From a virus, in the IMG/VR virus record IMGVR_UViG_3300037339_000331, positions 1 through 25,769 of that record: 25,769 nt of DNA. One strand, given 5' to 3'. Below the pieces are notes generated by a model. The model made no database searches and was not told the origin of the DNA. It saw nothing but the letters and a program-made list of their open reading frames with translations. Both the position numbers and the translations under genes were made by a program. Below are positions 2,593-23,080 of this stretch, one piece after another (the first letter of the stretch is position 1; every line of letters starts with the position of its first letter).

Positions 2593-2609
2593 ATGTCCTG
2601 AATAAGTTG

Positions 2610-2783: not shown

Positions 2784-2808
2784 TAGTCTCACCTCCTTTC
2801 TTAGATAG

Positions 2809-2839
2809 ACTTAAATGGAGAAAGGGCTATTCGCCCTTT
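2809..2839 (-). repeat. Intergenic hairpin plus ATTTAAGT element, overlapping a stop codon
   Basis: The 7-bp stem AAAGGGC/GCCCTTT (2821-2827 with 2833-2839) contains the TAG stop of the 61-aa gene and is followed on the minus strand by CTCCATTTAAGTC. The overlap shows the element is packed as tightly as possible between genes. Confidence 0.6.
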
Positions 2840-3012
2840 TCCTTTGCTACTCTATTGATTTGTTTATTGATTAGGTCATAGTAGACCCACTCAAGCACAT
2901 CAATTGCTCTATGAATAGCATGACCTCTATCCATTTCTTGATGAGCATAAGCCTGATCTGCTCTTCTACACATTTCCTTAGCCACTGTTGTTACGAACAT
3001 TGCTGCGTCCAT
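2827..3012 (-). CDS. Hypothetical small protein, 61 aa
   Basis: The ATG at 3012 follows AAGGAGG by five bases on the minus strand; the open frame runs further upstream only through the G-rich tract and is low-complexity there. The product is a helical, charged protein with one Cys and several His residues and no membrane segment. It is the first gene of the leftward cluster, next to the divergent control region, so probably the most strongly expressed. No family recognised. Confidence 0.55.
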   Translation of the reverse strand: MDAAMFVTTVAKEMCRRADQAYAHQEMDRGHAIHRAIDVLEWVYYDLINKQINRVAKEKGE

Positions 3013-3025
3013 GTCTACCTCCTTA

Positions 3026-3069
3026 GGGTATGGGTGGGTGGGGGGGTGGGGGGGGGAGCCCCTCCCCCC
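3026..3069. other. G-rich tract with quadruplex potential and GC hairpin
   Basis: The plus strand has five runs of three or more G (3026-3028, 3032-3034, 3036-3038, 3040-3046, 3048-3056) separated by one to three bases, which satisfies the usual G-quadruplex pattern. GGGGGGAG (3051-3058) also pairs perfectly with CTCCCCCC (3062-3069). The tract lies directly upstream of the ribosome binding site of the first leftward gene, so the leftward transcript is C-rich here. Confidence 0.6.
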
Positions 3070-3081
3070 TGCCAAGGGTTG

Positions 3082-3115
3082 AAATAATTCTCTCTGGTGG
3101 AGAATTATTTTTTAT
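3082..3115 (+). terminator. AT-rich hairpin with T-run in the divergent region
   Basis: A perfect 11-bp stem (3082-3092 with 3100-3110, 7-base loop) is followed on the plus strand by TTT and an AT-rich stretch, resembling an intrinsic terminator for rightward transcripts. No rightward gene precedes it in the window, so it may instead insulate the divergent region or act as an operator dyad. The stem is AT-rich and may be weak. Confidence 0.4.
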
Positions 3116-3204
3116 AATAAAGGGTATACGTTCACTTCACGATCTCCTGTATCCCTTCCAAGTCTTCCTACACCCCCGTTGTGCTATATGTTCATAATCC
3201 CTTT

Positions 3205-3778: not shown

Positions 3779-5506
3779 GTGCCAGCGAAATCAATTTACG
3801 AATTATCGGAGCAAGAGATCGAGTTACTGAAACATGGAATAACAAACCCTGATTTAGTTACTGATTATTTCTTTCGCCAGAAGGGGGAACCTAAAGGCTG
3901 GATACTTGATGAGAATTTTGACCCTGAAGGTTCTTGGCAAAAATCTGTTCATTCTGCGTCCCAAAAACGAATAGTCCTTGTGGGTGGCTTTGGTTCTGGC
4001 AAGACTAAAGGCGTGGCGATTAGCGCCTGTGTCTGGTGCCTTCTTACCAAAGACTTCACGTTTATGAACTGTGCTCCCACAAGCTGGCAGTCCGAATTGA
4101 TGTACAAATTTATCATGAACACGCTGGCGAGGGATACTGTCTTCGAGAAGATGATTTGGGCTTCACCAAAACGCCCTTACCCGATGATCGACATTCGCTT
4201 CCGCATTCACGGTGTCCTAGTAAAGTCCACAATGGAGTTTATGTCCGTAGACAAGAACGCTAACGCTATCCTGTCATGGGAAGGCGATTGGGTCAATGTC
4301 GATGAGGCTGGCTTGCTGGACGATCTTGGTGGCACGATTATCAATCTTGGCTCTCGCATGCGAGGGCATGTCAATGGCAGACCGTTTCTTGGTCGCATGT
4401 CTATGTGCTCAAACTCGTGGGACAATCCAGAGTTTTGGTACAGATACGACCTTGCTCACGACTTGCCAGATGACTATCTCTCGATGGCTATCTCAAGTCG
4501 CTATAATCACAATATCACGCCTGACCAGCTTCGCTTGATGCTGAAAGACATTCCTGAGGATGAGCATGACCGCTTTATTGATGCTACCAGACCTGAGGGA
4601 CGTGGTAACTACTTCAGCAAGCCGAGGATTTACGCTGCTGAGGATGAGAGCTACAGTGATTTTATACTTGGTCATATCGAGGCTGGCATGGAGGGCTTCG
4701 CTGCATCTACTACTTATGGCTGTGGAGTGACCTACTTCGAGGTTCCCTGGAATCCATCACATGAGTACATGCTGCTTGGAGACCCTGGTACTGGTGCTGC
4801 GCCTAACAGAAATGCGCCTGTTTTGATGGTTTGGGACATTCACGACTTCCCAAAGTTCAAAGCGACCCTTGCTGCCTTCTATTGGGGCGATGGAAAGGGC
4901 TCGATTACGCCCTTTTACAACACTTTATTCAAGTTTATGGTCAAATATAACCCTGTGGTGACTGCTGTGGACAATACAGGTACCCAAAAGAACACTTCTG
5001 AGATACTAAATAACTATATTATGTCGTCTAGGATGGAAGAAGGCAAGAAATTTGAGTTTTTGGGCGAAGTAGTTGACCTTTCTCGTGTCCTGAACACCCA
5101 AATTCAGGGTATGGACTTCTCAGGAGGCAAAAAACCAGCCTATTTGATCGCTGGAAGGCTCATGCTGGAGGCTGGACTGTTCTCCTGGCCTAAAATCATT
5201 ACTGGAATGAGGTCACAACTGAGTAATTATGACCCCGAGAAGGATAATACCAATGGCACTAAAATACCTCAAGACCTTGTGGCAACGTATAGTATGTCGT
5301 CTTACGCAGTTCAAGTCTGGTTTCATATCGACCCTAGTAAAGTGGCAGCGAAATCTCCGAAAGAGGCTGTTCAAACGTATGAAGAGCTTGGCTACCGAAC
5401 AATTAGACAATCTATACCAGCAAGAACAGCAAGATCACCAAGACCCGATACGTCCGACCCTGCGAAGTACCGAGAGGAACCAGAGAAGTTCCTCAGCGAG
5501 ACCTAA
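3779..5506 (+). CDS. terL: Terminase large subunit (packaging ATPase/nuclease)
   Basis: This is the motor ATPase that drives DNA into the capsid and the nuclease that cuts concatemers. The N-terminal ATPase domain shows a Walker A motif GGFGSGKT (residues 69-76) and a Walker B motif VNVDEA (172-177, with catalytic Glu after Asp). The C-terminal RNase H-like nuclease has the expected acidic residues: D335 in LLGDPGTG, D398 in TAVDNTG and probably D499 near IPQDLVA. The length of 575 aa is usual for the family. The start is GTG at 3779, nine bases after CGGAG and one base after the previous stop. One copy of the 12-bp palindrome lies within it at 4353. It acts at the portal, whose gene follows after a 176-base gap holding a promoter and structured RNA. 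Confidence 0.95.
   Translation: MPAKSIYELSEQEIELLKHGITNPDLVTDYFFRQKGEPKGWILDENFDPEGSWQKSVHSASQKRIVLVGGFGSGKTKGVAISACVWCLLTKDFTFMNCAPTSWQSELMYKFIMNTLARDTVFEKMIWASPKRPYPMIDIRFRIHGVLVKSTMEFMSVDKNANAILSWEGDWVNVDEAGLLDDLGGTIINLGSRMRGHVNGRPFLGRMSMCSNSWDNPEFWYRYDLAHDLPDDYLSMAISSRYNHNITPDQLRLMLKDIPEDEHDRFIDATRPEGRGNYFSKPRIYAAEDESYSDFILGHIEAGMEGFAASTTYGCGVTYFEVPWNPSHEYMLLGDPGTGAAPNRNAPVLMVWDIHDFPKFKATLAAFYWGDGKGSITPFYNTLFKFMVKYNPVVTAVDNTGTQKNTSEILNNYIMSSRMEEGKKFEFLGEVVDLSRVLNTQIQGMDFSGGKKPAYLIAGRLMLEAGLFSWPKIITGMRSQLSNYDPEKDNTNGTKIPQDLVATYSMSSYAVQVWFHIDPSKVAAKSPKEAVQTYEELGYRTIRQSIPARTARSPRPDTSDPAKYREEPEKFLSET
4353..4364. repeat. 12-bp palindrome CTCGCATGCGAG, copy 1
   Basis: Perfect palindrome within the terminase gene, where its frame encodes part of GSRMR. 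Preceded by T as in copies 2, 4 and 5. Confidence 0.7.
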
Positions 5507-5682: not shown

Positions 5683-7269
5683 ATGTATAGTTCTGCCCAT
5701 AGCTTCATAGAAACTTTAGAGAATGTACAGACTCCACCTTACAGTCTTCAGCAAATCCCTGGATTTCCTTATGACGAGTTCTCTGAACGCATAAGAATCT
5801 ACACAGAAGCAGAGAGTTGGTATACAGGGAAGGTGCTCGAAGATATAAAGATTGTCAAGGGGGAGAATGTTGAAGTTTATCCAGTAAAAATCAATCCAAT
5901 ACGTACTGCAGTTCAGAAGCATGTCTATGCTCTCTTTGGTGAGGTTGGCGAAGATGATCGACCTCTGGTGTCTGCTAGATTCGTCTTTCACAGCGATGGC
6001 GAAAGAGCGCTGGCAGAGACAGCCGAGCATATACTGAACCAAATTTGGTACGAAAGTAATGGAAGGGCTATTCAGTGGCAAAATGGCGCACTGTCTCAGG
6101 TCTATGGTGGCTGTATCTTCAAGATCGCTTATGACCCGCTCGATAAGCTGCGAACCTTCCCACTTAGAATAGAGAATCCCCACCCCAAGTACTTTATAGG
6201 TGTTCCTAGCGCCAACGATATCTATCGTTTGAGAGAGGCATGGTTCGTGAAGCCTGTCTCATGGGATGAAGCCAAAGAGAATGGCTACGATGGCTCTATC
6301 GATGGATCTCAAACTCCCTGGCTGGTAGAACACTACACAGATACCCTCTATGAGGCTACTGTGCAGGGTCAGCCAGTCAAAAGATGGGCTGATGGCAAGT
6401 GGCACGATGTCACAAGAGATGGTTGGGGTTTTGTGCCAGCAGTATACATACCTCATATTCGTGTCAATGGCTTTTATGGCGAAAATATGTTCGATCACAC
6501 GAAAGGCGTGGTCAAGGAACTAAATTTGCGAGTTGCCGACTTCGGTGACGCTGTGAATGCTGACTCTCATGCCTATTCTTGGATGCGTAACGTTCAGGGT
6601 TCTCCAGATGTGATAACAATCGCCCCTGGACTCAATGCAATCAACCTTGGCAATAGCATGGCCTTCTCAGGTAATGCCAATGAGCCAGAAATGGAGAGCT
6701 TAGGTAAAGATCGAGCTTCTCAACCAATGCAAGACCTTGCAACTGCTCTTTATGACCAGTTCAGGCGTGATTGCTTCATTCCGAAGGTCGCAGATGGTGA
6801 AGATGAAGGTTCTCAACGCTCTGGACTCACTTTAGCCATGCGTATGCTCTCTTTGACATGGCATACTAGCTCAGAACGTGTATTCTGGACTGCTGGACTG
6901 AATTTACTCAATAAGATGCTTATTCGGATGTGCATCGAGGCAGTTCCAGAGGCAGGACTCCAAATCTCGCATGCGAGTCTTAGAACGAAGCTGGATTGGG
7001 CTCCTGTGCTCCCGAGAGACCGAGAAATGCTCATCAATGAGGTCGTAGCACGTATGGGCTCCAATGTGTCGGCTCCTGAGACACTTTTTGGCATTTTAGG
7101 CGATATTCAGGATACAGATGAAGAAATAAAGGCAATTTTGGAGTTTCAAGAGAAATTAGCAGAGGCAACGGCAAAAGGCGCTCAAAAGGGCGCTCCCCCT
7201 CCGACAACTGGCGCAAAACCAGTCTCGAAGGGCACCATTAGTCGTTCTGCATCAGAAAAATCAGAATAA
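5683..7269 (+). CDS. Portal protein, 528 aa
   Basis: This is the dodecameric ring at the capsid vertex through which DNA enters and leaves and to which the tail attaches. The call rests on size, its place directly between terminase and scaffold/capsid genes, and features typical of portal proteins: a helical, aromatic N-terminal part, a segment around residues 110-160 with a conserved-looking NQIWYESN helix followed by a beta-rich YGGCIFKIAYD stretch, and a long helical C-terminal part ending in a low-complexity Ala/Lys/Pro tail. The ATG at 5683 follows AAGGAG. A copy of the 12-bp palindrome lies at 6966. It is the first gene downstream of the structured RNA, so its expression may depend on read-through. 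Confidence 0.85.
   Translation: MYSSAHSFIETLENVQTPPYSLQQIPGFPYDEFSERIRIYTEAESWYTGKVLEDIKIVKGENVEVYPVKINPIRTAVQKHVYALFGEVGEDDRPLVSARFVFHSDGERALAETAEHILNQIWYESNGRAIQWQNGALSQVYGGCIFKIAYDPLDKLRTFPLRIENPHPKYFIGVPSANDIYRLREAWFVKPVSWDEAKENGYDGSIDGSQTPWLVEHYTDTLYEATVQGQPVKRWADGKWHDVTRDGWGFVPAVYIPHIRVNGFYGENMFDHTKGVVKELNLRVADFGDAVNADSHAYSWMRNVQGSPDVITIAPGLNAINLGNSMAFSGNANEPEMESLGKDRASQPMQDLATALYDQFRRDCFIPKVADGEDEGSQRSGLTLAMRMLSLTWHTSSERVFWTAGLNLLNKMLIRMCIEAVPEAGLQISHASLRTKLDWAPVLPRDREMLINEVVARMGSNVSAPETLFGILGDIQDTDEEIKAILEFQEKLAEATAKGAQKGAPPPTTGAKPVSKGTISRSASEKSE
6966..6977. repeat. 12-bp palindrome CTCGCATGCGAG, copy 2
   Basis: Perfect palindrome within the portal gene, in a different reading phase from copy 1 (encodes SHAS), so protein constraint does not explain its sequence. 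Confidence 0.7.
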
Positions 7270-7954: not shown

Positions 7955-7969
7955 TTTTTGGAGGCTATC

Positions 7970-9349
7970 ATGGCTATTGGAGATATCGATCTCTATTATA
8001 GTGACGAGCCCTTCTCGATCATGGACAAGACTACAAGGACTTTCCTTGACCCTGACCTGATCGATATTTGGCGACTCAATTCTGTATTTCGCCCTCTTAT
8101 CACCTTCACCAAAAATCTTGGTGATATGAGAGCCAGATCGATGACCGTTACACAATTGCTAGACCCCCATGCCGACACGACTCCTCTCTCGACTCGTCAA
8201 ATCTGGATGCCCTCCATGCACATTGACACTCGCGAGATTGAGATCACCTTTGACCACAACGGTAACAAAATCGCATACCACAAGTATGACGATATGATTA
8301 CCTACTGGAAGAAGAACGGTCAGGCAGGGCTGCGTGCAATTGCTCGTGGCGCTCTCGGTCAATCTGAAGTGGACATGAACGACATGCTCGCTCGTAACGC
8401 TCTTATCGCAGGTTCGTTGACCACAGGTTATTCTCTGTATGGTACGTCAGGTTCTCTGGCAGACTTTGCAGCGATTGACGGTGGACAGCTTTACAACCCT
8501 GAAATGGGCGCTGAGATCATGTTGGGTATGTCCTACCGCAATGTTCCAGGTGCTATGTCACCTGATGGTGCTGGCATGACTGTGGTCTGCTACACTACCC
8601 CTGGTGTCATCTATGACATCCAGAAGAATGAAGACTGGCTGGCTGCACATCAGTACCAGCAAGACAAAGCGAAGCTGAACTATGAAGTCGGATCGTACAA
8701 GAACGTCCGTTACGTCCAGACTCCAAAATGCACGCTTTGGAATACTGGCACAATCCTGGCTCGTGCCCCTCTCAGTCTCGCCCACTTTGCTGGTGATGGT
8801 GCCCCCAATCCTGCTAGCGCCAAGGTTGATGGAACTTACCGCACTGGTCAGACAACTGCATCAGTCCGTAACTACATCCAGCTTGGCACGTTCACGGTTG
8901 GTACCATCGCTACCCTAAAGGTGAATGACATCATCACCTTCCACCAGTCAACCACGAATGCCTATGGCGTTAGTGGTGGCGTGAACTTCAACGAAGGCAA
9001 GCTCCAGAACCGCAGAATCGTAAGCATCGATTCTGGCAATGGTCGTATCTGCGTAGATATCCCCTTCCTTGTCGATTACGACACTGATCTCGGTGGTGGT
9101 GTGTTTGGTTACATCACCAAAGCACGTCATATCCATGCCTCGATCTTCATCGGTGGGCCGAACGCTCTTGTAGCTGGTGTTGCTCAGCAACCCATGTTCT
9201 ATGAGCTTGACCCGATTGACGACTTCAAGGCAATCTATCGATTCAGCTACGATCAACGAATCGGGTATCAGCCTTATACTCCAGAGGTCATGGAAGTAGT
9301 CTTCACTGCTGGAACGACTCGTGTGAAGGGTGTAGGGGGTGTCCAGTAA
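7970..9349 (+). CDS. Major capsid protein, 459 aa
   Basis: Called by position (scaffold before, connectors after), size and composition. It probably has the HK97 fold that all tailed phages use. The N-terminal half has a helical arm followed by the stretch with MTVTQLLDP and IEITFDHNGNKIAYHKYDDM, which would suit the extended loop and spine helix. Residues ~285-370 are Gly/Thr/Val-rich and beta-like and may form an inserted domain on the capsid surface. The ATG at 7970 is used because GGAGG lies five bases before it; a TTG at 7958 overlaps that site. It resembles the N4gp56-type capsid proteins in general character, but I cannot confirm that subfamily. Confidence 0.85.
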   Translation: MAIGDIDLYYSDEPFSIMDKTTRTFLDPDLIDIWRLNSVFRPLITFTKNLGDMRARSMTVTQLLDPHADTTPLSTRQIWMPSMHIDTREIEITFDHNGNKIAYHKYDDMITYWKKNGQAGLRAIARGALGQSEVDMNDMLARNALIAGSLTTGYSLYGTSGSLADFAAIDGGQLYNPEMGAEIMLGMSYRNVPGAMSPDGAGMTVVCYTTPGVIYDIQKNEDWLAAHQYQQDKAKLNYEVGSYKNVRYVQTPKCTLWNTGTILARAPLSLAHFAGDGAPNPASAKVDGTYRTGQTTASVRNYIQLGTFTVGTIATLKVNDIITFHQSTTNAYGVSGGVNFNEGKLQNRRIVSIDSGNGRICVDIPFLVDYDTDLGGGVFGYITKARHIHASIFIGGPNALVAGVAQQPMFYELDPIDDFKAIYRFSYDQRIGYQPYTPEVMEVVFTAGTTRVKGVGGVQ

Positions 9350-10535: not shown

Positions 10536-11624
10536 ATGACTACTGTAGCTCAAGCTGGTATTCTCGGTTTTGGCCCTTCCGCAGGGAAAGGTACTGCTGT
10601 CACAAGTGGTAGCTGGTTCCGTCATAAGGCAACTTTGATTGACCTAGCTGTGCTTGACGATCAGCGCCTTGGCCCTCCTGAAGTCGGTGGTCGCCCACTT
10701 CCTACGCTGCCCTACAAGGGTGGCGTGATGGTCGGTGGTGGGGCAACCATCAATCCTCGTCTTGAGGCATCTGTTGGCTGGCTCTTGGCTGGTGCGTTAG
10801 GGTCTTCGACCACAACGTCTGGCTCTGGCCCCCTCAAGAACCACGTAATGAGGATCAACAACGCTCTTCCTGGCTTAGTACGCTGGATGGGCTTCCGCAA
10901 GTACATTCCCTCAGATACATCGGGGTCTGACCTTGGGGAGCTTTATAAAGACTGCAAGATCACTAACTTCGTCCTGACACTCCCCAATGATGGTCTGGTG
11001 AGTGCTCGTGTTGACGTGGTTGGTCGTGAGTTCACGCTTGAGGGTGCCCCTGCTTGGGGTATCACCTCTGGCTCGGGTGGTGGTTGGGCTCCCACTTATG
11101 GTGAGTTTGAGTCCTATCTGTCTGTGCCAATCGGTACAGATGTTGGTGGCTGGATTAACACTCCAGGCTTTGGCGATTTGCCAGTGGTTCAGTGTCAGAT
11201 TGGCATCCAGAACATGCCTCTCGATCCTCGGATGGAGAAAGTGTACGGAAGTCCATATCTTGACGATGTGACCATTGTCTCTCGCGCCGTGACCCTTGAC
11301 CTTACCGTCAAGTGGCGTGACCCAACCCTCTATCGCAAAATCTTGACTGGCTCGGTCAGCGGTACCCAATGGTCTGCTGTTCCGTTCACGACTGAGATCA
11401 ATTTCCGCACCAAGTCACCCAATCTCATTCCGACAACGCACTTTCCGTATACCCTCGACATATACGTGAAGGAAGCGATGCTGGCAATGCAGGGTGGCGT
11501 CCAATTGGCTGGCAACAACGCTGTGATGATGAGATTCACTGGTACCGCCCTTGACGTTACTGGTGAGTACGCAACCTTCTCACTGTTGAACGCTTATTCC
11601 AATTACGACTGGCCGACTTCGTAA
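10536..11624 (+). CDS. Major tail tube protein, 362 aa
   Basis: Tail tube subunits stack into rings around the tape measure. The call is based on position (between neck genes and the tail chaperones), the high Gly/Ser/Thr/Val content, and features common to tail tube proteins: an N-terminal G-rich strand (ILGFGPSAGKGTAV) and mid-protein beta-strand repeats, with a helix containing PRLEASVGWLLAGALG. It is longer than many tube proteins, which suggests an extra surface domain. AAGGAG precedes the ATG. The next gene follows after 14 bases. Confidence 0.7.
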   Translation: MTTVAQAGILGFGPSAGKGTAVTSGSWFRHKATLIDLAVLDDQRLGPPEVGGRPLPTLPYKGGVMVGGGATINPRLEASVGWLLAGALGSSTTTSGSGPLKNHVMRINNALPGLVRWMGFRKYIPSDTSGSDLGELYKDCKITNFVLTLPNDGLVSARVDVVGREFTLEGAPAWGITSGSGGGWAPTYGEFESYLSVPIGTDVGGWINTPGFGDLPVVQCQIGIQNMPLDPRMEKVYGSPYLDDVTIVSRAVTLDLTVKWRDPTLYRKILTGSVSGTQWSAVPFTTEINFRTKSPNLIPTTHFPYTLDIYVKEAMLAMQGGVQLAGNNAVMMRFTGTALDVTGEYATFSLLNAYSNYDWPTS

Positions 11625-12079: not shown

Positions 12080-12125
12080 CCCCAATGTTTAGGGATTTGG
12101 GGAGGGACACAAAATGCCCCTCCCC
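12080..12125 (+). promoter_or_regulatory. Two mutually exclusive hairpins before the chaperone gene
   Basis: CCCCAA (12080-12085) can pair with TTGGGG (12097-12102), or GGGGAGGG (12099-12106) can pair with CCCTCCCC (12118-12125). The two share GGGG and cannot form together. The second is GC-rich and followed by a T-rich but imperfect tract, so it may be a partial terminator that lowers expression after the abundant tube gene, or a translational switch for the chaperone. Confidence 0.4.
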
Positions 12126-12147
12126 TATCCAAATCTTTCTTTTTATC

Positions 12148-12159
12148 CTCGCATGCGAG
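12148..12159. repeat. 12-bp palindrome CTCGCATGCGAG, copy 3
   Basis: The only intergenic copy. It lies 16 bases before the chaperone ATG and runs into the AAGGAG ribosome binding site. Confidence 0.7.
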
Positions 12160-12174
12160 AAGGAGTTTTATTCT

Positions 12175-12618
12175 ATGCCTATTAGATTAGATGTACCTTT
12201 AGAAAAAGAATACGTCCTTGAACATTCGGATAAGATGTTCGGAATTTCAGAGGCCGAATCCACAAGGGTCACTATTCGTCAAGCTACTCAAGGCGATCAC
12301 GAGCGCAGGGCTGCTTTGTTTTCTCAGGTTATTCGAGAGATGACAAGAGAGAACCAGCAAGAAGATGTTGTCAGGCTCATCCAGCGCTTTAGTTTTGAAG
12401 AGCTAAAGAGGATTGAAGTCCAATTGACTATGGTCGCATGCAATATACTTGGCAGTGACGGAAAGTTGCTATTCAAGTATAATTCTGATGGTAAATTAGA
12501 CGAGCACAAGTTTCGTGATGCATGGAACGCATTACCTCCATCCGTAGCTAGCGAAATTCACGAGTACTCCATAGACTTAAATGTAGATTGGCAGCCATCA
12601 TTGGGGGAAGCCTCTTAG
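12175..12618 (+). CDS. Tail assembly chaperone (short form), 147 aa
   Basis: Tail assembly chaperones hold the tape measure during tail-tube building. This product is an acidic helical protein with the usual family C-terminal pattern: FRDAWNALPPSVASEIHE followed by a Trp. It lies directly before the tape measure gene. The ATG at 12175 is used because AAGGAG precedes it; an ATG at 12085 in the same frame has no site and lies in the hairpin region. The frame overlaps the next by about 30 bases in the -1 register, the usual gpG/gpGT arrangement. The overlap contains TTGGGGGAAG (12601-12610), a G-run where glycyl-tRNA could slip back by one. Confidence 0.7.
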   Translation: MPIRLDVPLEKEYVLEHSDKMFGISEAESTRVTIRQATQGDHERRAALFSQVIREMTRENQQEDVVRLIQRFSFEELKRIEVQLTMVACNILGSDGKLLFKYNSDGKLDEHKFRDAWNALPPSVASEIHEYSIDLNVDWQPSLGEAS

Positions 12619-12923
12619 GGGAAATTTTAGAAGACTTAGAGAATAGATTAGCCGACTACTTCGGAATGCTAAACCAGCTAAGAGCTGGTCTCCGTGTAGC
12701 GCCAGAAGAGCGATTCAGTAAACCTGATGAGCTAAAGAAGTATGAGCAGATGAAGGCTCTTGGTATTCCTGTTTGGGCTGGAGGAGTCCAAGATCAGCCC
12801 CATATTTGGCTTTTGGAGTTTTCAGTTATAGATAACTTCGTAAGGCTCCAAGAGACTCTGAATCGTGCTTCACAACAGGCGCAGTTGCAGCAACAGCAGT
12901 TGCAGCAACAAATTGGAGAATAG
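12588..12923 (+). CDS. Tail assembly chaperone -1 frame extension
   Basis: This frame has only a TTG as possible start (12588), with no ribosome binding site, so it is probably made as a C-terminal extension of the preceding chaperone by -1 slippage near 12603-12606. The frame is open from 12552. The extension is ~105 residues: a helical acidic part, a Trp/Pro part and a Gln-rich tail. This is the T part of the gpG-gpGT system, which would bind the tube protein. The G-run is not a perfect X-XXY-YYZ heptamer, so independent initiation coupled to the first gene remains possible. Confidence 0.55.
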   Translation: MAAIIGGSLLGEILEDLENRLADYFGMLNQLRAGLRVAPEERFSKPDELKKYEQMKALGIPVWAGGVQDQPHIWLLEFSVIDNFVRLQETLNRASQQAQLQQQQLQQQIGE

Positions 12924-12924: not shown

Positions 12925-15900
12925 ATGGCCCGAATGATGGTTCCTTATAATAACGCCACTGGTGACGATGAAATCGCTGACGTAAGAGCCTTGGTGGATA
13001 GCCTCAACCGTGATCTAGTAAACGAAGGCTATACATTTGAGTTCTCTGGAAACAAGGTAGGAGACAACTTCTACCGTGTCTACGCGTCTCATGGTGGTGG
13101 AGGTTATGGTCAATATGGCGCATTTCTAGACTTGCGCCTCGGTATGCTGAGTCCAAAAGGGCGTACCATAGAAATGATGACTGGAAAGCCAGGAACATAC
13201 GGTATGCCTGGATTCGCACGTCACATTTATGGACAAGCTGATATTTCCCAACCTTACGATACTTTCAAAGACTATGTACGCTCTGTATTTGAATTTGCCT
13301 CAAATGAGGGCAAAAGTCCTAATGAAGTGAAATGGACAGTGTACCAAGAGGGATTTGAGGGTAGAGATTTGCCAGGGTCGGAGGAATTTGGGATCGATAG
13401 TTACGAAGCGACTATGTTCCCATCTATAGGTGGAATACTTACAAAAAGCTCTTCACAGGCGCAACGTGTGTTTATGGCGTCTGCAGTTAGACCTTTTCTC
13501 CCTAGAAGTGTCGAACCAAGGGATTATGTAGCAGATATCATAAAACAGATGAAAGCCAAGTCTGGAGCCCCTCTAGGGCTATATGGCTATGTTCCGACCT
13601 CTAAATATGGATGGGTTCCTGGTGGAACGTCTTTTATGACTGCAGAAGACCTTGTAAGTGATGAACCTAATTATTTTGTAGCCTTACCCAATGCGCCAGG
13701 GAAAGCAGCCAAAAGTACAACTTCTTGGGTTGGTTCTCGAAATATGGCTAATGTGCCACTTGTAAAAGACCCAAACACTGGAAGATTAGTAAAAGTACAA
13801 CCTAGCATGCCTGAGAGGGGATATGGGTTTAGAAGAGGGTGGACGATGACTTCTGGCCCGATTGCGACTGAACAGGAGCCTAGAATGGTTTATTCTGCTC
13901 AAGTCGCAATGTTAGACATGCCAGACATGCCAGGAGCGATGCTGGCGTCAAAAGGCGCTTTTAGCTTTTATGGCAAGACTGGTATCCAACCACAAGAGGG
14001 AGTGAGTCCCAAGCTAGATACTTATGCGATTGGCGAAAAGGGCGAAGGACTATACGAGTTCAATGTCACAACTGTCGATGATTTCTGGAATCTTGTTGAT
14101 AAAGGCAAACTAAAGTTTTTTGATGTACAGGGCAAGCAAGTGAAGCCAGGAGATGGAAAGTACTCTCTAGGTCATTACTGGCGAGAGGGAGCAGAAGGAA
14201 AGCCTGGACAGTGGAAAGATGTTTATATTGACAAACGATCTTACGGTATGTCGCTGAATAAGCCCACCCTTCATATACCTGAGTTCTACAATCCGACTGT
14301 CCAAGGTGGCGCTTTCTCCAATCTACCTGTGATGAAACCTGATGGAAAAACTTTGTCAAAAACCGATAAGTTAGTAGCACAGCTAAGGCAGACTTATGGA
14401 GATACTGTCAATATTGTTCAGTATAGCGGTATTGGAGTCGGTACAGAAGAAAGCCCTGCTGCTGCATATTTGACATATGATTTCGAGAGAATTACACCTG
14501 TTTCTACCAAGAGTGGTAGAGACTTCAAGGGCTTTGTAGCTCAGAAGGGATATTCCTACGAGCTTGAATATCTTGGCGAAGAAGGCTCACCGCAACGCGT
14601 TGACTTTATGACTAGCGAGACCAAGATACCTGTAGGCGCAATTCAAGGCTCTTTCCAGATTATGAACATGAAGACTCAGCAAAGTTTTCTCAAGACGTTC
14701 TTGCCTAAAGGACTGAGAGAAAGCGCTGCTGTCAGGAAGATGCAACAGCGTATCGAGGAAGCATACGACAGCCCTCTTCCAGGTGGAAATGTGAACGTAG
14801 ACCCAAATCTACTCGCTGAGGAATGGTCTGAGGCTACAAAGACTGAGACAACAGCAGATCAGCTATTCAAGATAATTACGAATAATATCTTGAACGTAAC
14901 CGACAGAAAGAAAGCCAAGAAGTACAGAGAGATGTATGGCTTGGGATTTCTCACAGACCAATGGGTAAAGGGAAATGTCTATGCTCCTGGCAGAAAAGAT
15001 GAGTTCATGCGATTACTGCGTGAGTTGCCAGAGGCAGATAGAGCCAATATCGATTGGGAGGATTTCTTTGAGGAATATCCAGAGCTTACATCTGCTGATC
15101 TGAGAGTTGATGAAAATACAGAAATAAAGAATATTACGCCAGTTCAGCTAAAAAGAATGAGATTCAAGGCTAGCGGAGGCGGTAATGCTCTGGCGATACA
15201 GGCAGCCCTAAACTTTGTTCCTGAGTATCAGTCTTCGTCTGGTTTCATGAACAAGCAAGCTATCATGGATTTGATAGAAAATTTCCCTGCTGCTGCCCGA
15301 GAGGTCGGTCTAATGGATGACTCAGGAGGTTGGGGTGGCGTATTCAATCCAGATGCGTATGGCGCAAAGGGTGTTCCCGATCCTGCTACTGTTGGCGCTC
15401 AATCTATGCTCTATTATCTTGAATACCAGAAGAGTCTACTGTCTGGTGGAGAGGTTGTGCCTGGAGACACTGTGGGACTAAGCCCTAAGTTAGCTGCTGA
15501 TATTTCGGGAGTCATTGAGGATGCACGTAGGCTTTATCCCAAGAATAATAAAGAACAAATCAATTATTTGCGAGACCAGCTAAAAATATTAAGTAAGGGT
15601 GCGGAGCGCTACGGTCTAGATAAATCAACGAGACTGGACGAGTCATTCTTCCTAGACCCTCATAGCGGGACTCTTATACCAAAGATAGATGCTGTTACTG
15701 GACTAGAGCATTACAAGCCAGGAGTACTTGAGGGAGTAACCGAGACATGGTTGGGCGATAGCTATATGCGCCTGTTGGATGCTGCAACTCAATCTGCTAC
15801 ATCGTCTCCTGGTGCTCAGATGACCATTATTGGCTCGGCAAGAGATCGTTTTCTTGGAAGGGCTAATAACTACTTCTTTCCTGATGGTCGCCGCTCGAAG

Positions 15901-18900
15901 CCAATGTTTAGGCATATAACAGGCATGGATCTTCCTGGCTCTCGTGGTGGGCGCTATCAGGGCATGACTGAGCTTGAGTCTGGTGAGGCTTACGCATCCG
16001 ATAACTATATTATTCGTGCTTTAGCTGCTGGTGGTTTCAAGAACTCACGCCAGATAAGAAGCATTCTGAATTATATGAATAGCTCGCCAGACGCTTTTCT
16101 CCCTATACAGTTTCAGCGTTACCCTGATCTAAGTGGCAATGTGACATTCATGCCAATGAAACTGAGATCGCAAAAGCATCTCGTAAGGTATGGCGTACCT
16201 CCTCCAGAGGGTGGGCCTAACTCAGAAGACCTATTGTATATATCAGATACCATCAACCGCTTTCAGGTGGGCGACTTTGACGCTGATCCATACATGACCA
16301 AAATAATGCCAATATTCCAGACGAAGGATACAACTACTGGAAAATTGATAGACGAATGGGCTATGGGCGATGCCACAAGAGAAGAGTTTGAGAGGAAGTT
16401 TTCGTTTCTATATAGCCCTGAACTTGACAACGAGAACAAAACTCGTCTTGATAGAGTGCTTGAAGATCAATTTGGCGAGCGTGGTACGCAGCCATCTCAA
16501 GAAAGTCTTGACCAATCTAGAAAAACAGTAAGCGATTACTCGAAGGCAATGAGGACTGTCGGTAGCATAAGGTCTCGTACTGCTGATGCTCAGTGGTACC
16601 CGATTGCCGATGTGCTGGATGCGTACACATCTTCATATGAATCTGGTGCTGGCAAGGGCGTTTCCTATATCGCTCGTACTGAAGTTATGGATATAGCCTC
16701 TACTGTTTTAGGGATGTCGGGCAGAAGTGTTGATATATTCAAGAAGGCATATGAATCTATGGCTTTGCCATACCAGCTTTATCTCGACTTGAATAAGAAG
16801 ATGCTTGGTGGCTTTACTCAGCTAGAGACCATGCTAAATACCTATGGCATTTATGGTATTGAAAAGCAGGGTAATGCTACATACTACCGCTTGAATTACA
16901 AACTGACCAATCAGGGTAGTCCAGTTGAACTAGACCCAAATAAATGGGCTAAGGCTGGTGGAACAGGGGTTAGCGCTGAAGCAGGGATGCTAATCAATAA
17001 ACTGATGAACTCCACTGCACAAATGCCAGAAGAGCTTATGACTAATGATGCATTAGCTATGGGCTGGTCTACTCCAGGTAATGAAGAGGCGGTGCTAAAT
17101 GCATTAAAGAATCCAGAGAAATTCTGGCAAGAAGCAAAGTATGGCGCTGAAACAGTTAACGCTTTATCATCGGATGTAGTTAGATCGAGAAGTGCTATTC
17201 TCGGTGAGCTATATACCCAAGGCAAGGTTGGTTGGGGGTCAAATTACTACACAGCCTTGACCTATAGAGCTATCGAGAGACTCAGACGCACTACCCCTTC
17301 TGAGATTCAGAACGAGAAGATAATGCTTCCCTGGATGAATGGCGAAGTTATGCCTATCAAGGACATTGTGAAAACTCGTGAATTTATGAAATGGGATTTA
17401 GCTGAGACGCTTTTTGTTAGAGGTGCTGAGGCGCCCACTCCAGAGCAAATGGAGCTTCTCAATCAAATTGGTGGCTTCAGGATGCTAGGTATGCTATCTG
17501 GTATCCGTAAGGACTATGAAATTGCTACTGGTGGAATGAGAAGTGTCGAGAGCGCTGGCAAGGAATATGGTCAGAGACTAAAGGACGCTTTCAAAGTATG
17601 GCAGGAATCGAGGCTTACTCGGTCTCCGATTGTGCATGCGAGTGAACTTGGCTCTGTTCTTAAGGCTCCAAAGTTTCTTCAGGATGAAGGTTGGCAAAGT
17701 GCTCCTGATGAGCAGTCTATTGAAACACAGTATCGTATTGGCCTCAGTATGATGGGCTTTCCATTCTTGATGACAGGACACGGCAAGGCTGGTACTCACT
17801 TCAGAAGAGTGAACTGGATTGCTGGTGGCGAGTCTTTGATTGATAAAGGCCCAATAGGTGGTGGTATTGATTTCGAGAGAGAGTTTAATCTGGCTCATCC
17901 AGCAATGCAGCATATTGGTAGAGTGTCAGAGGAAGGCATCATAAAATTCCAGCTAGGCAATATAACGATGCATGGAACACCAGACTTTGTTAATCTTGAT
18001 GATGATGGGAATGTAGTCATCACGGACACAAAGAGTCCAGCACCGACCAAGAATACTCCGTACACTCAGGATTATGCAGAAGCCAAGGCAAAGCAATACC
18101 GCTATCGCATTCAGCAGCTTAGTTATGCTTATGGTCTCCAGTCAATGGCTAGAAACAAAGATACTGATTGGGATACGTTCATGGAGTCATGGAATATCCG
18201 TGACAAAGACACGAAGACACGTATTCGACTGGCTGCTTCTGCTGGCAAGATAAAGCTATTTATTCAGCCAGGGCGCTATACAACCGACACTGGTCTTGAG
18301 GAATACACTCCCATTGAAATACCCTACAATGATGACACAAAGCGAGAGCTTGTTGCTTATGGTCAAGCATTTGAGAAGAAGATCGTTGACAGGGCGATGA
18401 TTGGTGAGGTAGCGCAGAAGTCTTGGGAAGCTCTTGGTACAGGGAATGTTCCAGAAGCGCTTACTGGCTATGCGTTCACGTCAAAGCATGTTGACATGGA
18501 TTTGTTCAGTGGTCTAAAGGAATATGCCAAGAGGTACTTCAAGGGAACTAGGGCTTCGGGTGGTGGTTCATTCCGCAAGGGTTCTCGCATGCGAGTAAGA
18601 GTTGGCGAGGGTGGCCCTGAAGAATTGCTAATCGGTGAAGAGGGTGTAGAGGTTATCCCTACACATGAGCTTGCTGAGTCTCGCATGGCGCAGGGGCTAG
18701 ACCCGACAGAGGTTATTATTGGCGCAACCGCTAGGGAGGGTGATGAGTTTGGTTTCGAGGCTATAGCTAAGGTCGGTGGTAAGCCAGGAAGGAAAAAATC
18801 TAAACTCCCTACTGGTAGTGATGTTATTCCTACTGAAACTTCACTTTTGGCTAATGCTGTTGCTGCCAGCGCTCCTGCTACTGCTACTGGTATTGGCGGT

Positions 18901-21900
18901 GGAGCGATTATAACCAAAGAAGATTTGAGAAAGTCTTTAGGTGAACTATTCTCCGAAAAGGTTGACTTAACTGTTAGATTTCCAAACAGGACTGTCTCGC
19001 CCTACGAGGGTACATATAATGCTCAGGTTGGGACTCTCCTGCAGTCCATCAGAACAATGGAGCCATCTATTAGGGAAGTCGCTTCTGGCACTCAGGATAT
19101 ATTGAAGGATTGGTTTACTTCGGTTGGCAAGGAGGGTATGATAACCTCATTGCTCGATCTTCCTACTACAGGAGAGCAGTATGATTTAGCTCTTTTACAG
19201 GGGATGTCGTCAGAGGATTTTGTCTCAAGAGCAGCCAAGAAAACTGGATTGGTGGGAGCAGCACGCAAAGTATCTAAAGTCTCCACAATGATGAATAAGC
19301 TGAACGCTGTTATAACTCGTGCTGGTGGAGTTAAAGAGATGGAAGGGCTAGATAAAGAACTTCCAGAGCTTCAACTACTCAAAGAGACAGCGAAGTATTT
19401 GGACACGAGCACTACAGAAGGTGCTCAATATGCACAACAGCTAGGGCAAGTTGGTAGTGTAGCTGGAACGATAGTGAATCTCCAGAAAGATATTACGGAA
19501 GCAGTAAAAGAAGGAAAGCCTGGTGGTGCCAAAGATATTTATTCACTCCAGGCATCGCCAGAATCGGTGAACAGGTATATTGCATCTTTTGATAAGATGA
19601 CCGAGGCGCATGGCAAATATAACGAGGCTCTAGAGAAGGGCAAGAAAGTACACGAAGCGCAGTTTGAGTTAGATAAACAGAGATTACAAGTTGGCATTGA
19701 TTTGAATAGAATGCAGAAGGAAGACGCTCAAGCAAGAGCAGGTAATTTACGTAAAGATGACAGATGGCTAACTCCAACGGAAGTGCAAGCATTACCAAAA
19801 GGTGAAGTTGATCTTACTATGAGAAAGGCTGCTGCTGCAGCACGAGCTTACGAACAATCAGAGATACAAAAGGGAGAACAGCTTGGTAAATTAATAGAAC
19901 GAGGCACTTCTGGTGGCGGTGGTATGGAAGCCATCGCTGGCTTTGGTCGTAAAATGCTTGGTGGGTTTGGGCTAATGTATATGCAGTCCATAGCTGGAAT
20001 TATTGGTGCAAAGGCTATGGAAGGGTATCCTGAAGCCGAACAGAACCAAATGCTAGCCTTTCAAGCTCTTGGTGGTCTTACTGGTGGTTTTGACCCATAT
20101 ACTAGTGCTGAAAGACGTATTGCTCAAACGAAGAGAATGGCTGGTGGTCTTGGTGGTTTTGGTATTAGAAGTATATATGCGAAGGTCTTAGAAGACCCCA
20201 CATTGAGTATGGCTCTTGGTATGGGGCAGACTGCTCTTGGTGCCGCTTCCTTTGGTATGTTTGGCGCTGCCTCTCTTGGTCTTACTGGTGCTACTATCGC
20301 TGCCACTGGAGGCATAGCTGCTGCCATTGCTGTTCCCTCTATATTAGCTGCTGGTACTTATGGAGCTATGTTAGAGCCTGAGCTTTCAGCTTCCTCTTTA
20401 GCAGCACAAGCTAGCAAGGGTAAGGCTGGCGAACTCTCCTTTGCTCAAATGGGTATGGAGTGGCAGGGGCCAGGGGGACAAATATCAAAAAACCTGAAGG
20501 ATATACAATTCGCTCAGCAATTAATTGGCTACAAGCCATCTATCACTTTCCAGCAGTTACGTTCCGATCTTGGATGGGATAGAGAGGAATATGTAAAGCA
20601 ACTCAGGATGTATTCAGAGACACTGGCGAAGACATTTACTACTGCGCCAGAGTACACGTATCAGGCTGTACGACTAAAGGAAGCCTACCAGATACCTCTC
20701 AGCGAAGGTGGAATAGAGAGAATGGCTGGCATTCTTGAACAGGGTATGCCTGTTCAGCAACTCGGAGAAATAGCGGGTTGGTCGCCATACGCAACTGGCG
20801 CAGAGCGCAGGTTTGCTGCTGGTCGTGTCATGGCTGATATTGTCGGTCATCCTGATCGTTGGACTGAAGAGAGACAAGCATATTTGCAACAGGGCGCTAG
20901 TTTTGTTCAGTCTCTTGGATATATGGCTCCTAACATTACTGGTTCTAGAGAAGTTACTACTCCAGGGGCGTGGGTAGATGTAGAGGTAACTAAGAGAGGG
21001 ACAGATTATAAATGGAAGGGTGGGGGTGGGATCGGAGAAATGGGTTGGTATCCAGAAGAAAAGACATGGACTGAGCTAGAAAGAGTCTGGCAGGACGCCA
21101 CAGTTGATATTGTCAGTAATATGGCTGAATACGAAGCTAGGATAGGCGAAACGCTTAGCACTTCTCAGGAAGCCCTCATAACAAAAATGGTAGCTGTTGA
21201 AGAGAGTAAGCGTCTTCGTGGGCAAGAATACACTTCTTCCTACGATATTATCAAGGCAGTCGGAGCAATGACGCCAGCGCAGATGGATTTCCAAATGCGC
21301 GCTACTAAAGTAGACCAGATCATGGGTAATGCTTTAGATCGTTTGGAGCAAACATTTATTCAGCTTGGCGACTTGATGCCTAATATGGAACGATTTTCAA
21401 CTATGACGATGGGACAAGTAGGCTTTTACACTCAAGCTGCTCAGTATGGACAGCAACTTGAGCAAACCTTGATTGGTGGTGGTGTAGCTCCAAAACAGGC
21501 GCAGATGACAGGAAGAACATATGCTGCCTTGGCTCAGCTTGACCCTCAATTAGCTACTCGTATGGCTGCTGCTGGTCGTGGCGATGTTAGAGAAATGGTT
21601 GCACTTATGCAGAAGTATCCAGAAATGTCTAACATTGGTGGAACTATAACTGGTGTTGGTGGTACAGAGATTGCTATCGGTAATCTGAATTTTGCTGCTG
21701 GTCTTACTGGCCCTGGTGGTCAATTAAGTGGTTTGTCTTGGGGAAGAGCTAACCTAGAAACTCCAGCGTGGTCGGGACAACAGGTAGCTAATATGATTTG
21801 GGGGCCTGAGTCTAGTTGGGCTGGCAAAGGTTACAACGCAGATATCATTAACCAGATGATAACTGGTGGCACAAGAAGCGTAGAGACTGCTCAGGCTCGT

Positions 21901-22539
21901 TTAGGTTTCCAGTATCAACAAGCTCAAGCTGGCATGCAGATGGAGCAGATAGCGCTTCAAAAATGGTACATGCCACAGCAATTTGCTTTGCAAGAACGTG
22001 GTCGCAATCTAAGCTATGCTCAAGCTGAATGGGGTTTCCAGCAACAGGAACAGCAACTAGCTCTCGGACAGCAAAACTTTGCCTTCCAAACTGGTATGCA
22101 ACAACGTCAGATGGGCTTGCAGCGTGGGTGGCAGCGAGAGGATTGGGCCTACAACGAACAGGTACGTGGGTTGCAATGGCAATGGAAGCAAGAGGACTAT
22201 GGCGAGAATCTACGCTTTATGACAGGGCGTGACCGTAGACTTGCCGAGCGCCAGATGGGTCGTGAGACCACTATGCACGATCTTGAGAGTGAGCAGATTG
22301 AAAAGCAGAAGGGTCGCCAAAAAGAACTTTGGGCGATGGAAGACGAGCGCTTCAATCAGCAAATCGCTTATCAGACAGCGCTATTCAAAATGCAGGAAGA
22401 GAATCTCTCAAAGCAAAAAGATTTCTTTGAACAGAACAAGGCAATCCAAGAAGAGTCTGCTGATTTGCAGGAAGAGTACTGGAAACGATCAATCGCTCTT
22501 CAGGAAAAGGCCGCTGGTATTGCTGCTTCCATTCAATAG
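12925..22539 (+). CDS. Giant tape measure fused to RNA polymerase-like and nuclease domains, 3204 aa
   Basis: The ATG at 12925 follows GGAG by six bases; a frame start 60 bases earlier overlaps the previous gene. Parts in order: (a) residues ~1-1300 with two-barrel RNA polymerase signatures (K529/K535 near 530 and D1117/D1119/D1121 in DFDAD); (b) a PD-(D/E)XK nuclease at ~1645-1830; (c) GEEGVEVIPT near 1904-1913, resembling the GERGPE motif common near tape measure ends; (d) a charged helical stretch at ~2050-2330; (e) hydrophobic segments at ~2334-2364 and ~2436-2483 that could insert in membrane; (f) a Gln/Trp-rich coiled coil from ~2985 to the end. Parts d-f are typical tape measure. The C-terminus seems to continue in the +1 frame to 23080. 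At about 350 kDa it is unusually large. Inferred role: sets tail length and delivers the enzymatic parts with the DNA. Confidence 0.85.
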   Translation: MARMMVPYNNATGDDEIADVRALVDSLNRDLVNEGYTFEFSGNKVGDNFYRVYASHGGGGYGQYGAFLDLRLGMLSPKGRTIEMMTGKPGTYGMPGFARHIYGQADISQPYDTFKDYVRSVFEFASNEGKSPNEVKWTVYQEGFEGRDLPGSEEFGIDSYEATMFPSIGGILTKSSSQAQRVFMASAVRPFLPRSVEPRDYVADIIKQMKAKSGAPLGLYGYVPTSKYGWVPGGTSFMTAEDLVSDEPNYFVALPNAPGKAAKSTTSWVGSRNMANVPLVKDPNTGRLVKVQPSMPERGYGFRRGWTMTSGPIATEQEPRMVYSAQVAMLDMPDMPGAMLASKGAFSFYGKTGIQPQEGVSPKLDTYAIGEKGEGLYEFNVTTVDDFWNLVDKGKLKFFDVQGKQVKPGDGKYSLGHYWREGAEGKPGQWKDVYIDKRSYGMSLNKPTLHIPEFYNPTVQGGAFSNLPVMKPDGKTLSKTDKLVAQLRQTYGDTVNIVQYSGIGVGTEESPAAAYLTYDFERITPVSTKSGRDFKGFVAQKGYSYELEYLGEEGSPQRVDFMTSETKIPVGAIQGSFQIMNMKTQQSFLKTFLPKGLRESAAVRKMQQRIEEAYDSPLPGGNVNVDPNLLAEEWSEATKTETTADQLFKIITNNILNVTDRKKAKKYREMYGLGFLTDQWVKGNVYAPGRKDEFMRLLRELPEADRANIDWEDFFEEYPELTSADLRVDENTEIKNITPVQLKRMRFKASGGGNALAIQAALNFVPEYQSSSGFMNKQAIMDLIENFPAAAREVGLMDDSGGWGGVFNPDAYGAKGVPDPATVGAQSMLYYLEYQKSLLSGGEVVPGDTVGLSPKLAADISGVIEDARRLYPKNNKEQINYLRDQLKILSKGAERYGLDKSTRLDESFFLDPHSGTLIPKIDAVTGLEHYKPGVLEGVTETWLGDSYMRLLDAATQSATSSPGAQMTIIGSARDRFLGRANNYFFPDGRRSKPMFRHITGMDLPGSRGGRYQGMTELESGEAYASDNYIIRALAAGGFKNSRQIRSILNYMNSSPDAFLPIQFQRYPDLSGNVTFMPMKLRSQKHLVRYGVPPPEGGPNSEDLLYISDTINRFQVGDFDADPYMTKIMPIFQTKDTTTGKLIDEWAMGDATREEFERKFSFLYSPELDNENKTRLDRVLEDQFGERGTQPSQESLDQSRKTVSDYSKAMRTVGSIRSRTADAQWYPIADVLDAYTSSYESGAGKGVSYIARTEVMDIASTVLGMSGRSVDIFKKAYESMALPYQLYLDLNKKMLGGFTQLETMLNTYGIYGIEKQGNATYYRLNYKLTNQGSPVELDPNKWAKAGGTGVSAEAGMLINKLMNSTAQMPEELMTNDALAMGWSTPGNEEAVLNALKNPEKFWQEAKYGAETVNALSSDVVRSRSAILGELYTQGKVGWGSNYYTALTYRAIERLRRTTPSEIQNEKIMLPWMNGEVMPIKDIVKTREFMKWDLAETLFVRGAEAPTPEQMELLNQIGGFRMLGMLSGIRKDYEIATGGMRSVESAGKEYGQRLKDAFKVWQESRLTRSPIVHASELGSVLKAPKFLQDEGWQSAPDEQSIETQYRIGLSMMGFPFLMTGHGKAGTHFRRVNWIAGGESLIDKGPIGGGIDFEREFNLAHPAMQHIGRVSEEGIIKFQLGNITMHGTPDFVNLDDDGNVVITDTKSPAPTKNTPYTQDYAEAKAKQYRYRIQQLSYAYGLQSMARNKDTDWDTFMESWNIRDKDTKTRIRLAASAGKIKLFIQPGRYTTDTGLEEYTPIEIPYNDDTKRELVAYGQAFEKKIVDRAMIGEVAQKSWEALGTGNVPEALTGYAFTSKHVDMDLFSGLKEYAKRYFKGTRASGGGSFRKGSRMRVRVGEGGPEELLIGEEGVEVIPTHELAESRMAQGLDPTEVIIGATAREGDEFGFEAIAKVGGKPGRKKSKLPTGSDVIPTETSLLANAVAASAPATATGIGGGAIITKEDLRKSLGELFSEKVDLTVRFPNRTVSPYEGTYNAQVGTLLQSIRTMEPSIREVASGTQDILKDWFTSVGKEGMITSLLDLPTTGEQYDLALLQGMSSEDFVSRAAKKTGLVGAARKVSKVSTMMNKLNAVITRAGGVKEMEGLDKELPELQLLKETAKYLDTSTTEGAQYAQQLGQVGSVAGTIVNLQKDITEAVKEGKPGGAKDIYSLQASPESVNRYIASFDKMTEAHGKYNEALEKGKKVHEAQFELDKQRLQVGIDLNRMQKEDAQARAGNLRKDDRWLTPTEVQALPKGEVDLTMRKAAAAARAYEQSEIQKGEQLGKLIERGTSGGGGMEAIAGFGRKMLGGFGLMYMQSIAGIIGAKAMEGYPEAEQNQMLAFQALGGLTGGFDPYTSAERRIAQTKRMAGGLGGFGIRSIYAKVLEDPTLSMALGMGQTALGAASFGMFGAASLGLTGATIAATGGIAAAIAVPSILAAGTYGAMLEPELSASSLAAQASKGKAGELSFAQMGMEWQGPGGQISKNLKDIQFAQQLIGYKPSITFQQLRSDLGWDREEYVKQLRMYSETLAKTFTTAPEYTYQAVRLKEAYQIPLSEGGIERMAGILEQGMPVQQLGEIAGWSPYATGAERRFAAGRVMADIVGHPDRWTEERQAYLQQGASFVQSLGYMAPNITGSREVTTPGAWVDVEVTKRGTDYKWKGGGGIGEMGWYPEEKTWTELERVWQDATVDIVSNMAEYEARIGETLSTSQEALITKMVAVEESKRLRGQEYTSSYDIIKAVGAMTPAQMDFQMRATKVDQIMGNALDRLEQTFIQLGDLMPNMERFSTMTMGQVGFYTQAAQYGQQLEQTLIGGGVAPKQAQMTGRTYAALAQLDPQLATRMAAAGRGDVREMVALMQKYPEMSNIGGTITGVGGTEIAIGNLNFAAGLTGPGGQLSGLSWGRANLETPAWSGQQVANMIWGPESSWAGKGYNADIINQMITGGTRSVETAQARLGFQYQQAQAGMQMEQIALQKWYMPQQFALQERGRNLSYAQAEWGFQQQEQQLALGQQNFAFQTGMQQRQMGLQRGWQREDWAYNEQVRGLQWQWKQEDYGENLRFMTGRDRRLAERQMGRETTMHDLESEQIEKQKGRQKELWAMEDERFNQQIAYQTALFKMQEENLSKQKDFFEQNKAIQEESADLQEEYWKRSIALQEKAAGIAASIQ
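14467..14655 (+). other. Beta-like catalytic barrel of a two-barrel RNA polymerase
   Basis: Residues 515-577 resemble the double-psi barrel of bacterial RNAP beta around its two conserved active-site lysines. Here YL...ERITPVSTK is followed by S-GR-DF-K-G, giving K529 and K535 next to a GR and a KG. In beta the order is K-x2-GR-x3-KG (E. coli K1065 and K1073). Then VD (559-560), IP (568-569) and G575 have the same spacing (VD-x8-VP-x5-G) as in beta without a gap. Residues 334-343 (DMPGAMLASK) may match the upstream beta strand. Confidence 0.65.
16117..16293 (+). other. Beta'-like catalytic barrel with three-aspartate loop
   Basis: Residues 1113-1123 read FQVGDFDADPY. The metal-binding loop of cellular RNAP beta' is NADFDGD, and YonO-type and crAss-like phage polymerases keep DFDGD; the three Asp are preserved here as D1117, D1119 and D1121, with Ala for Gly. 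An RYP (1065-1067) lies 52 residues upstream, like the R-x-P before the loop in beta' and RNA-dependent polymerases. YQLYLDLNKK (1283-1292) downstream may match the Q-x3-D-x2-K helix of two-barrel enzymes; this last point is tentative. Confidence 0.65.
17857..18412 (+). other. PD-(D/E)XK nuclease domain (RecB/Cas4 type)
   Basis: Residues ~1645-1830 carry the ordered motifs of this fold: G1684-T-P-D1687, then the strand VVITDTK with D1701 and K1703, then a helix with Q1730-x3-Y1734 (QQLSYAY). All expected catalytic residues are present, so the domain is probably active. It lies between the polymerase-like and tape measure parts of the same polypeptide. Confidence 0.8.
18584..18595. repeat. 12-bp palindrome CTCGCATGCGAG, copy 4
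   Basis: Perfect palindrome within the tape measure gene; encodes part of GSRMR as in copies 1 and 5. Confidence 0.7.
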
Positions 22540-23080
22540 GCTTCTTGAAGACTTGAATGGCTTATACAGCCTTATTAATACAGAGAGTGGTGCTGATTTC
22601 AATAAGTGGATAGAGGAATTAGATCCTGCTCTGCTTGGAGCAAATTCCGAACTAGGAAAACTTTTGGCATTGGCTCAGGCGATGGCGCTGCTAGACTTTC
22701 CCGACCCTGGTAGTGGTGGAGGCGGTGGTGGAGGGAATTACAAATGCCCTATATGTGGAGACACGTTTACTACTGAGTCTGGTTTGATTAATCACTATGG
22801 CAAACATCCTGATCCTAAGCCTCCACTGGAATTACAGCATGGTGGTCGTGTTATGCCAGGGATGGATTACGTTGTTGGCGAAAGAGGCATAGAAGTATTT
22901 CGTCCTGATGTATCTGGCAGAGTTATGCCTCTCGATCCTTGGGGTACTACCTACACCACAGACTATGCACCCACTAATAAAGGCGAGGGCAGACAACTTG
23001 TTCACCTACAGGTATTTGTTGGCGATGAGAAGCTGATTGACAAGGTAATAGATGCTGTTGACCAGAAGGTTAGGGAATAA
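22538..23080 (+). CDS. C-terminal part of the tape measure in the +1 frame, ~180 aa
   Basis: The 3204-codon frame stops at TAG 22537-22539, but from the next bases the +1 frame reads on as a natural continuation: helical RLLEDLNGLYSL, then a Gly-rich linker, a C2H2 zinc finger (22745-22807), the tape measure end motif GGRVMP...VVGERGIEVFRP, and the helix FVGDEKLIDKVIDAVDQKV that ends many tape measures. Upstream of ~22530 the same frame is Arg/Ser/Lys-rich noise. No ATG with a ribosome binding site is found near the junction (a TTG at 22553 is poor). So the segment is likely joined by a +1 frameshift at ATT-CAA-T-AGG, or the TAG is a one-base insertion in this sequence. Its stop overlaps the next start (TAATG). 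Confidence 0.7.
   Translation, partial: RLLEDLNGLYSLINTESGADFNKWIEELDPALLGANSELGKLLALAQAMALLDFPDPGSGGGGGGGNYKCPICGDTFTTESGLINHYGKHPDPKPPLELQHGGRVMPGMDYVVGERGIEVFRPDVSGRVMPLDPWGTTYTTDYAPTNKGEGRQLVHLQVFVGDEKLIDKVIDAVDQKVRE
22745..22807 (+). other. C2H2 zinc finger in tape measure C-terminus
   Basis: The residues follow the classical pattern exactly: C-x2-C-x3-F-x5-L-x2-H-x3-H (CPIC...F...L..HYGKH). It sits just after a run of glycines and 15-20 residues before the GERG end motif. All four zinc ligands and both hydrophobic core residues are present. Confidence 0.8.

Follow-up and report, generated by a model that had tools for sequence, protein, structure and literature searches.

A Putative Two-Barrel RNA Polymerase in the N-Terminal Part of a Tape Measure Protein from an Uncultured Siphophage-Type Virus

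The IMG/VR record IMGVR_UViG_3300037339_000331 is a 25.8-kb fragment of an uncultured virus; the whole stretch analysed (25,769 nucleotides) is called the window here. It carries a giant open reading frame (ORF) that encodes a tape measure protein of the siphophage type. Sequence comparison suggests, with a probability of roughly 0.83, that a single-chain two-barrel DNA-dependent RNA polymerase (RNAP) makes up the first ~1450 residues of this protein; the enzyme would be carried in the tail and would transcribe the first phage genes. A tape-measure-fused RNAP is the best supported explanation because the positions conserved in the family are the metal- and nucleoside triphosphate (NTP)-binding residues of two-barrel RNA polymerases and lie in the tape-measure ORF.

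Putative Active-Site Signatures of the Giant ORF

The reading frame of the giant ORF is open from position 12865, and its likeliest start is the ATG at 12925. The original prediction, made from the letters of the window alone, had named K529, K535, R1065-x-P1067, and D1117/D1119/D1121 as polymerase residues. Counted from this ATG, the residue numbers are correct, and R-x-P lies 52 residues before the first Asp. The prediction had also described a spacing like that of the RNAP beta subunit. The layout does match E. coli RpoB, in which K1065-x2-GR-x3-KG is followed by VD-x7-VP-x5-G at 1094, but the window reads VD-x7-IP-x5-G and not VD-x8-IP as first stated. Five residues separate the lysines in the window (K529-SGRDF-K535-G) versus seven in RpoB (K1065-MAGRHGN-K1073-G). 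In E. coli beta′ (RpoC), the RAPTLH motif stands 35 residues before NADFDGD, and the order of the signatures in the giant ORF is that of RpoB/RpoC. The RxP distance in the window is also close to the 35–39 residues of RpoC, gp96, gp64, and gp66 (the last three are phage RNAPs described below). Unlike the window protein, E. coli beta and beta′ are two chains, and no overall similarity was detectable. DxDxD is also reported as the metal-binding motif of two-barrel RNAPs in PMC10770324. In the proposed enzyme, K529 and K535 would lie in one double-psi beta-barrel (DPBB) and R1065-x-P1067 with D1117/D1119/D1121 in the other, and the three Asp would bind the catalytic Mg2+.

Conservation in Syntenic Relatives

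Because the motif had been picked by eye, an independent test was needed. Neither peptide-based scans, run with giant-ORF and terminase sequences, nor tblastn against annotated phages found relatives. A terminase Walker-B pattern retrieved 25 contigs, nearly all of them syntenic with the window. The test set comprised the seven inspected relatives whose contigs cover enough of the tape-measure ORF (G020, G017, G023, G018, G011, G012, and G014). Their terminases are 36–64% identical to that of the window, and a giant ORF follows the tail tube and chaperone genes in all seven. The giant ORF of G020 shared 35% identity with that of the window across residues 19–1400; those of G017, G023, G018, and G011 had a BLAST match to it in the tape-measure part only, and those of G012 and G014 had no BLAST link to the window. 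A six-way alignment held the six alignable members (residues 1–1500), and an eight-way alignment added G012 and G014.

The six-way alignment showed 811 gap-free columns, 18 of which were invariant. Exactly six of its 146 gap-free K/R/D columns were invariant, namely K529, K535, R1065, D1117, D1119, and D1121. This set is identical to the six K/R/D residues named beforehand (hypergeometric P of approximately 8e-11, columns treated as independent); with P1067 included, the named residues make up 7 of the 18 invariant positions among 811 columns (P of approximately 7e-13, on the same treatment). K529 and K535 were kept in 6/6 alignable members, the exact column depending on the alignment. The VD...IP...G element was partly kept in these members (D560 in 5/6, 'IP' in 2/6).

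R1065 and P1067 remained invariant in the eight-way alignments (8/8), as did all three Asp, while nearly all of their surroundings varied. The distance from R-x-P to DxDxD was 40–67 residues in all eight giant ORFs, and each giant protein contains one or two DxDxD in total. A pair of RxP and DxDxD at such spacing occurred in 1 of 174 background ORFs, and its combined shuffle probability over the seven relatives was approximately 1e-13, with the relatives treated as independent. The two-barrel-type constellation of active-site residues proposed for the tape measure N-terminus thus held up in relatives at the same genomic place, and this conservation indicates that the signatures are more than chance.

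The DxDxD variants of the family are DFDAD, DLDWD, DADKD, DIDLD, DSDRD, DFDAD, DLDTD, and DQDSD, so that the residue between the second and third Asp may be A, W, K, L, R, T, or S. The replacement of DGD by DAD had been regarded as a notable variant. This idea was dropped: neither the middle residue nor the other residue between the Asp is constrained in the family, so that DAD carries no meaning.

Comparison with Known Two-Barrel Polymerases

The original prediction had asked whether such a fusion had been described before, and it has. The 5002-aa tape measure protein gp96 of Thermus phage P23-45 has an active virion RNAP as its N-terminus (PDB 8H2M, 8H2N; PMC10770324). This assignment is backed by crystal structures, chromatin immunoprecipitation, and transcription data, and it was the first proof of a tape-measure-fused RNAP, obtained in 2024 in one group of hot-spring (Thermus) phages (PMC10770324). 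The window protein is like gp96 in its structural gene order, in RxP followed by DxDxD, and in being a single chain. It is unlike gp96 in that BLAST, HMMER, and hhalign found no significant similarity between them, although these tools also miss the relation of gp96 to gp64, the non-virion RNAP of P23-45. RxP lies further from the first Asp than in gp96 (52 residues in the window versus 38), the second Lys is widely separated from the first Asp in the window family, and the extra domain is nuclease-like in the window and a metallopeptidase in gp96.

The single-chain two-barrel virion RNAP gp66 of the crAss-like phage phi14:2 (PDB 6VR4) likewise has RxP and DFDxD, 39 residues apart, but gp66 is a separate protein and not part of a tape measure, and it has no significant similarity to the giant ORF. 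P23-45 gp64 (RxP 38 residues before the first Asp) and the YonO-type phage RNAPs are also single-chain two-barrel enzymes, with DxDGD, but none of them is joined to a structural protein; YonO is likened here by description only.

By analogy with P23-45, the polymerase would ride in the tail joined to the tape measure, which would be injected, form the entry channel, and reach the cell interior before the DNA or together with it. The polymerase may remain associated with the tape measure and transcribe the first phage genes during entry, as proposed for gp96. No promoter set was definable. G011 was searched for a T7-type RNAP without a signal, and the controls of this search were silent too. 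The fusion type is already known from P23-45; judged by the open-access PMC literature, a second, highly diverse lineage, met in uncultured contigs only, is most likely new.

Evidence against a Polymerase and Alternative Explanations

Several results speak against a polymerase. The lysine pair was not aligned in the eight-way alignment or in G012 and G014, and 489–667 residues separate the second Lys from the first Asp in the family. After DPBB-A, no recognisable signature of a bridge helix or trigger loop was found, only a conserved GxGxxY around G1245. AlphaFold2 models reached a predicted local distance difference test (pLDDT) score of 35 alone and 40 with the seven relatives; no barrel was seen, and Foldseek returned no meaningful match. 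The best stretch was the DPBB-A segment, in which blocks of ten residues reached pLDDT values of up to 74. Neither sequence nor profile comparison gave a significant match to known RNAPs, although the same profile method also misses accepted homologues (the crAss profile versus RpoC, and gp96 versus gp64). Sequence searches of the PDB gave no match.

The strongest rival, which we consider unlikely, is a two-barrel descendant with another role, such as an inactive scaffold, a primase-like enzyme, or a PolD-superfamily DNA polymerase. PolD is itself a two-barrel enzyme (PMC10770324), and an RNAP domain is dispensable for a tape measure, since the P23-45 relatives G18 and phiFa are without the RNAP part (PMC10770324). 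Catalytic positions that are strictly kept at 15–35% overall identity speak against an inactive relic, and the sole known tape-measure-fused example is an RNAP.

It is still less probable that DxDxD serves as a calcium-binding loop, of the EF-hand, dockerin, or FG-GAP type, in a structural tail protein unrelated to polymerases. Identical GDFDGDPY strings are present in FG-GAP-type and other non-RNAP proteins, and GDFD[AG]DP, including GDFDGDP, is repeated in an unrelated phage repeat protein of ~960 aa. In 257 Gb of cellular genomes, GDFD[AG]DPY had 10 matches, 0 of them RNAP-like, so the string is not diagnostic by itself; scans with it also picked up other giant ORFs. However, DxDxD does not stand in a repeat in the window family, and the residue after the third Asp is P, R, or F and not the usual Gly. 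In addition, RxP always lies upstream at the family's spacing (8/8), and the lysine pair also precedes it (6/6).

That the motifs came together by chance in a rapidly evolving tape measure protein is very improbable: a hunt by eye over 3204 aa does invite chance, and among 20,000 shuffles of residues 1–1500 DxDxD arose in 100 (0.5%) and a tolerant beta signature in 2, but both barrel signatures in order arose in 0, and the residues were named before the relatives were known and then proved to be the sole invariant K/R/D in the N-terminal alignment.

Genome Organization of the Window

The features of the window are listed in Table 1. The order of terminase, portal, capsid, tail tube, overlapping chaperone ORFs, and giant ORF was shared by all inspected relatives whose contigs extend there, and this structural module has the same order as that of Thermus phage P23-45. 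Three features of the giant ORF agree with a tape measure protein: its location, a coiled, Q-rich end, and a hydrophobic segment. The C-terminal end of the tape measure is unbroken with the giant ORF in G020, G017, G018, and G011; its different frame in the window reflects either a frameshift of the genome itself or faulty assembly. The nuclease-like stretch lies behind the polymerase module. It was kept in G020 alone among the aligned relatives and was not found in G017, G023, G018, or G011.

Table 1. Features of the giant ORF and the structural module in the window.
Feature	Position (nt)	Strand	Residues (aa)	Basis or remark
Large terminase	3779..5506	+		phrog_2, E = 1e-11; key for finding relatives
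Portal protein	5683..7269	+		PF05133, E = 4.8e-7; phrog_64
Major capsid protein	7958..9349	+		phrog_1357, E = 1.2e-9
Tail tube protein	10536..11624	+		PF18906, E = 7e-14
Tail assembly chaperone pair	12085..12923	+		Two overlapping ORFs (12085-12618 and 12588-12923); position; candidate frameshift; order shared with relatives
Giant ORF	12925..22539	+	3204 in total	Homologous to 2879-3318-aa ORFs of syntenic phages
RNAP-like module, N-terminal			about 1-1450	
Putative DPBB-B signature	14509..14649	+	529-575	K529, K535-G536, VD-x7-IP-x5-G (559-575); E. coli RpoB layout
Putative DPBB-A segment	15982..16329	+	1020-1135	8-sequence alignment
R1065-Y-P1067	16117..16125	+	1065-1067	R-x-P of the beta′ RAPTLH motif; invariant 8/8
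D1117-F-D1119-A-D1121	16273..16287	+	1117-1121	Putative metal-binding DxDxD; three Asp invariant 8/8
PD-(D/E)XK (RecB/Cas4-like) nuclease-like stretch	17959..18204	+		D1687, D1701-x-K1703, Q1730-QLSYAY; phrog_5715 exonuclease, E = 1.8e-4
Tape measure region			about 2330-3204	
Hydrophobic segment in tape measure part	20272..20373	+	2450-2483	Hydropathy peak; also in G017 and G011
Tape measure C-terminal end	22540..23080 (also given as 22526-23080)	+		C2H2-like zinc finger and terminal domain; different frame from giant ORF here

The related G011, an 84.6-kb phage contig, contains thirty tRNA genes, a nearly full set (L133 86-6155, L145 4444-4519). A palindrome, TTCCTATTAGGAA, occurs in G011 in 15 copies (at most one mismatch) versus 0.15 expected, for example at 6351, 19684, 39479, and 75117, with copies both inside and between genes.

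Other Giant Phage Proteins with Similar Motifs

A family of 2083–3046-aa proteins with RNP and RF-x-IGD[FY]DAD motifs was observed in G003 (L008 13396-20000 with L009 1-583) and also in G001, G007, G008, G009, L102, and L103. Its gene directly adjoins another giant ORF, which bears an Amidase_2 domain in G003. These proteins probably form a further family of virion-associated two-barrel RNAPs, in this case not fused to another protein. Giant 'hypothetical' proteins of up to 4838 aa with RSPPPG and GDFDGD motifs come from cyanophages and uncultured relatives, namely gp080 of Microcystis phage Ma-LMM01 (L078 4573-15261), L005, L014, L016, L018, and L077, and are probable two-barrel RNAPs. Profiles of the G003 and Ma-LMM01 families contacted the window at the DxDxD string only, and no homology to either is claimed. 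In Flavobacterium phage Fpv1 (L150, record 34368-47573), an annotated structural protein of 4401 aa contains a crAss gp66-like RNAP domain.

Implications

We speculate, more tentatively, that uncultured siphophages widely use tape-measure-fused RNAPs as an injection strategy, that this strategy is very diverse and may have been acquired without a link to P23-45, and that some chains combine a tail ruler, an RNAP, and a PD-(D/E)XK nuclease. If the nuclease-bearing reading is true, early transcription and nucleic-acid attack would enter the cell together with the tape measure. A practical rule for finding more cases, usable where sequence and profile searches are blind, is to look for RxP together with DxDxD within the N-terminal half of giant tape measures. 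If the window protein and its relatives are indeed polymerases, they would provide a diverse set of sequences showing what the active site minimally requires in the least conserved RNA polymerases, and the tape measure would be a recurrent means by which phages couple DNA entry with transcription.
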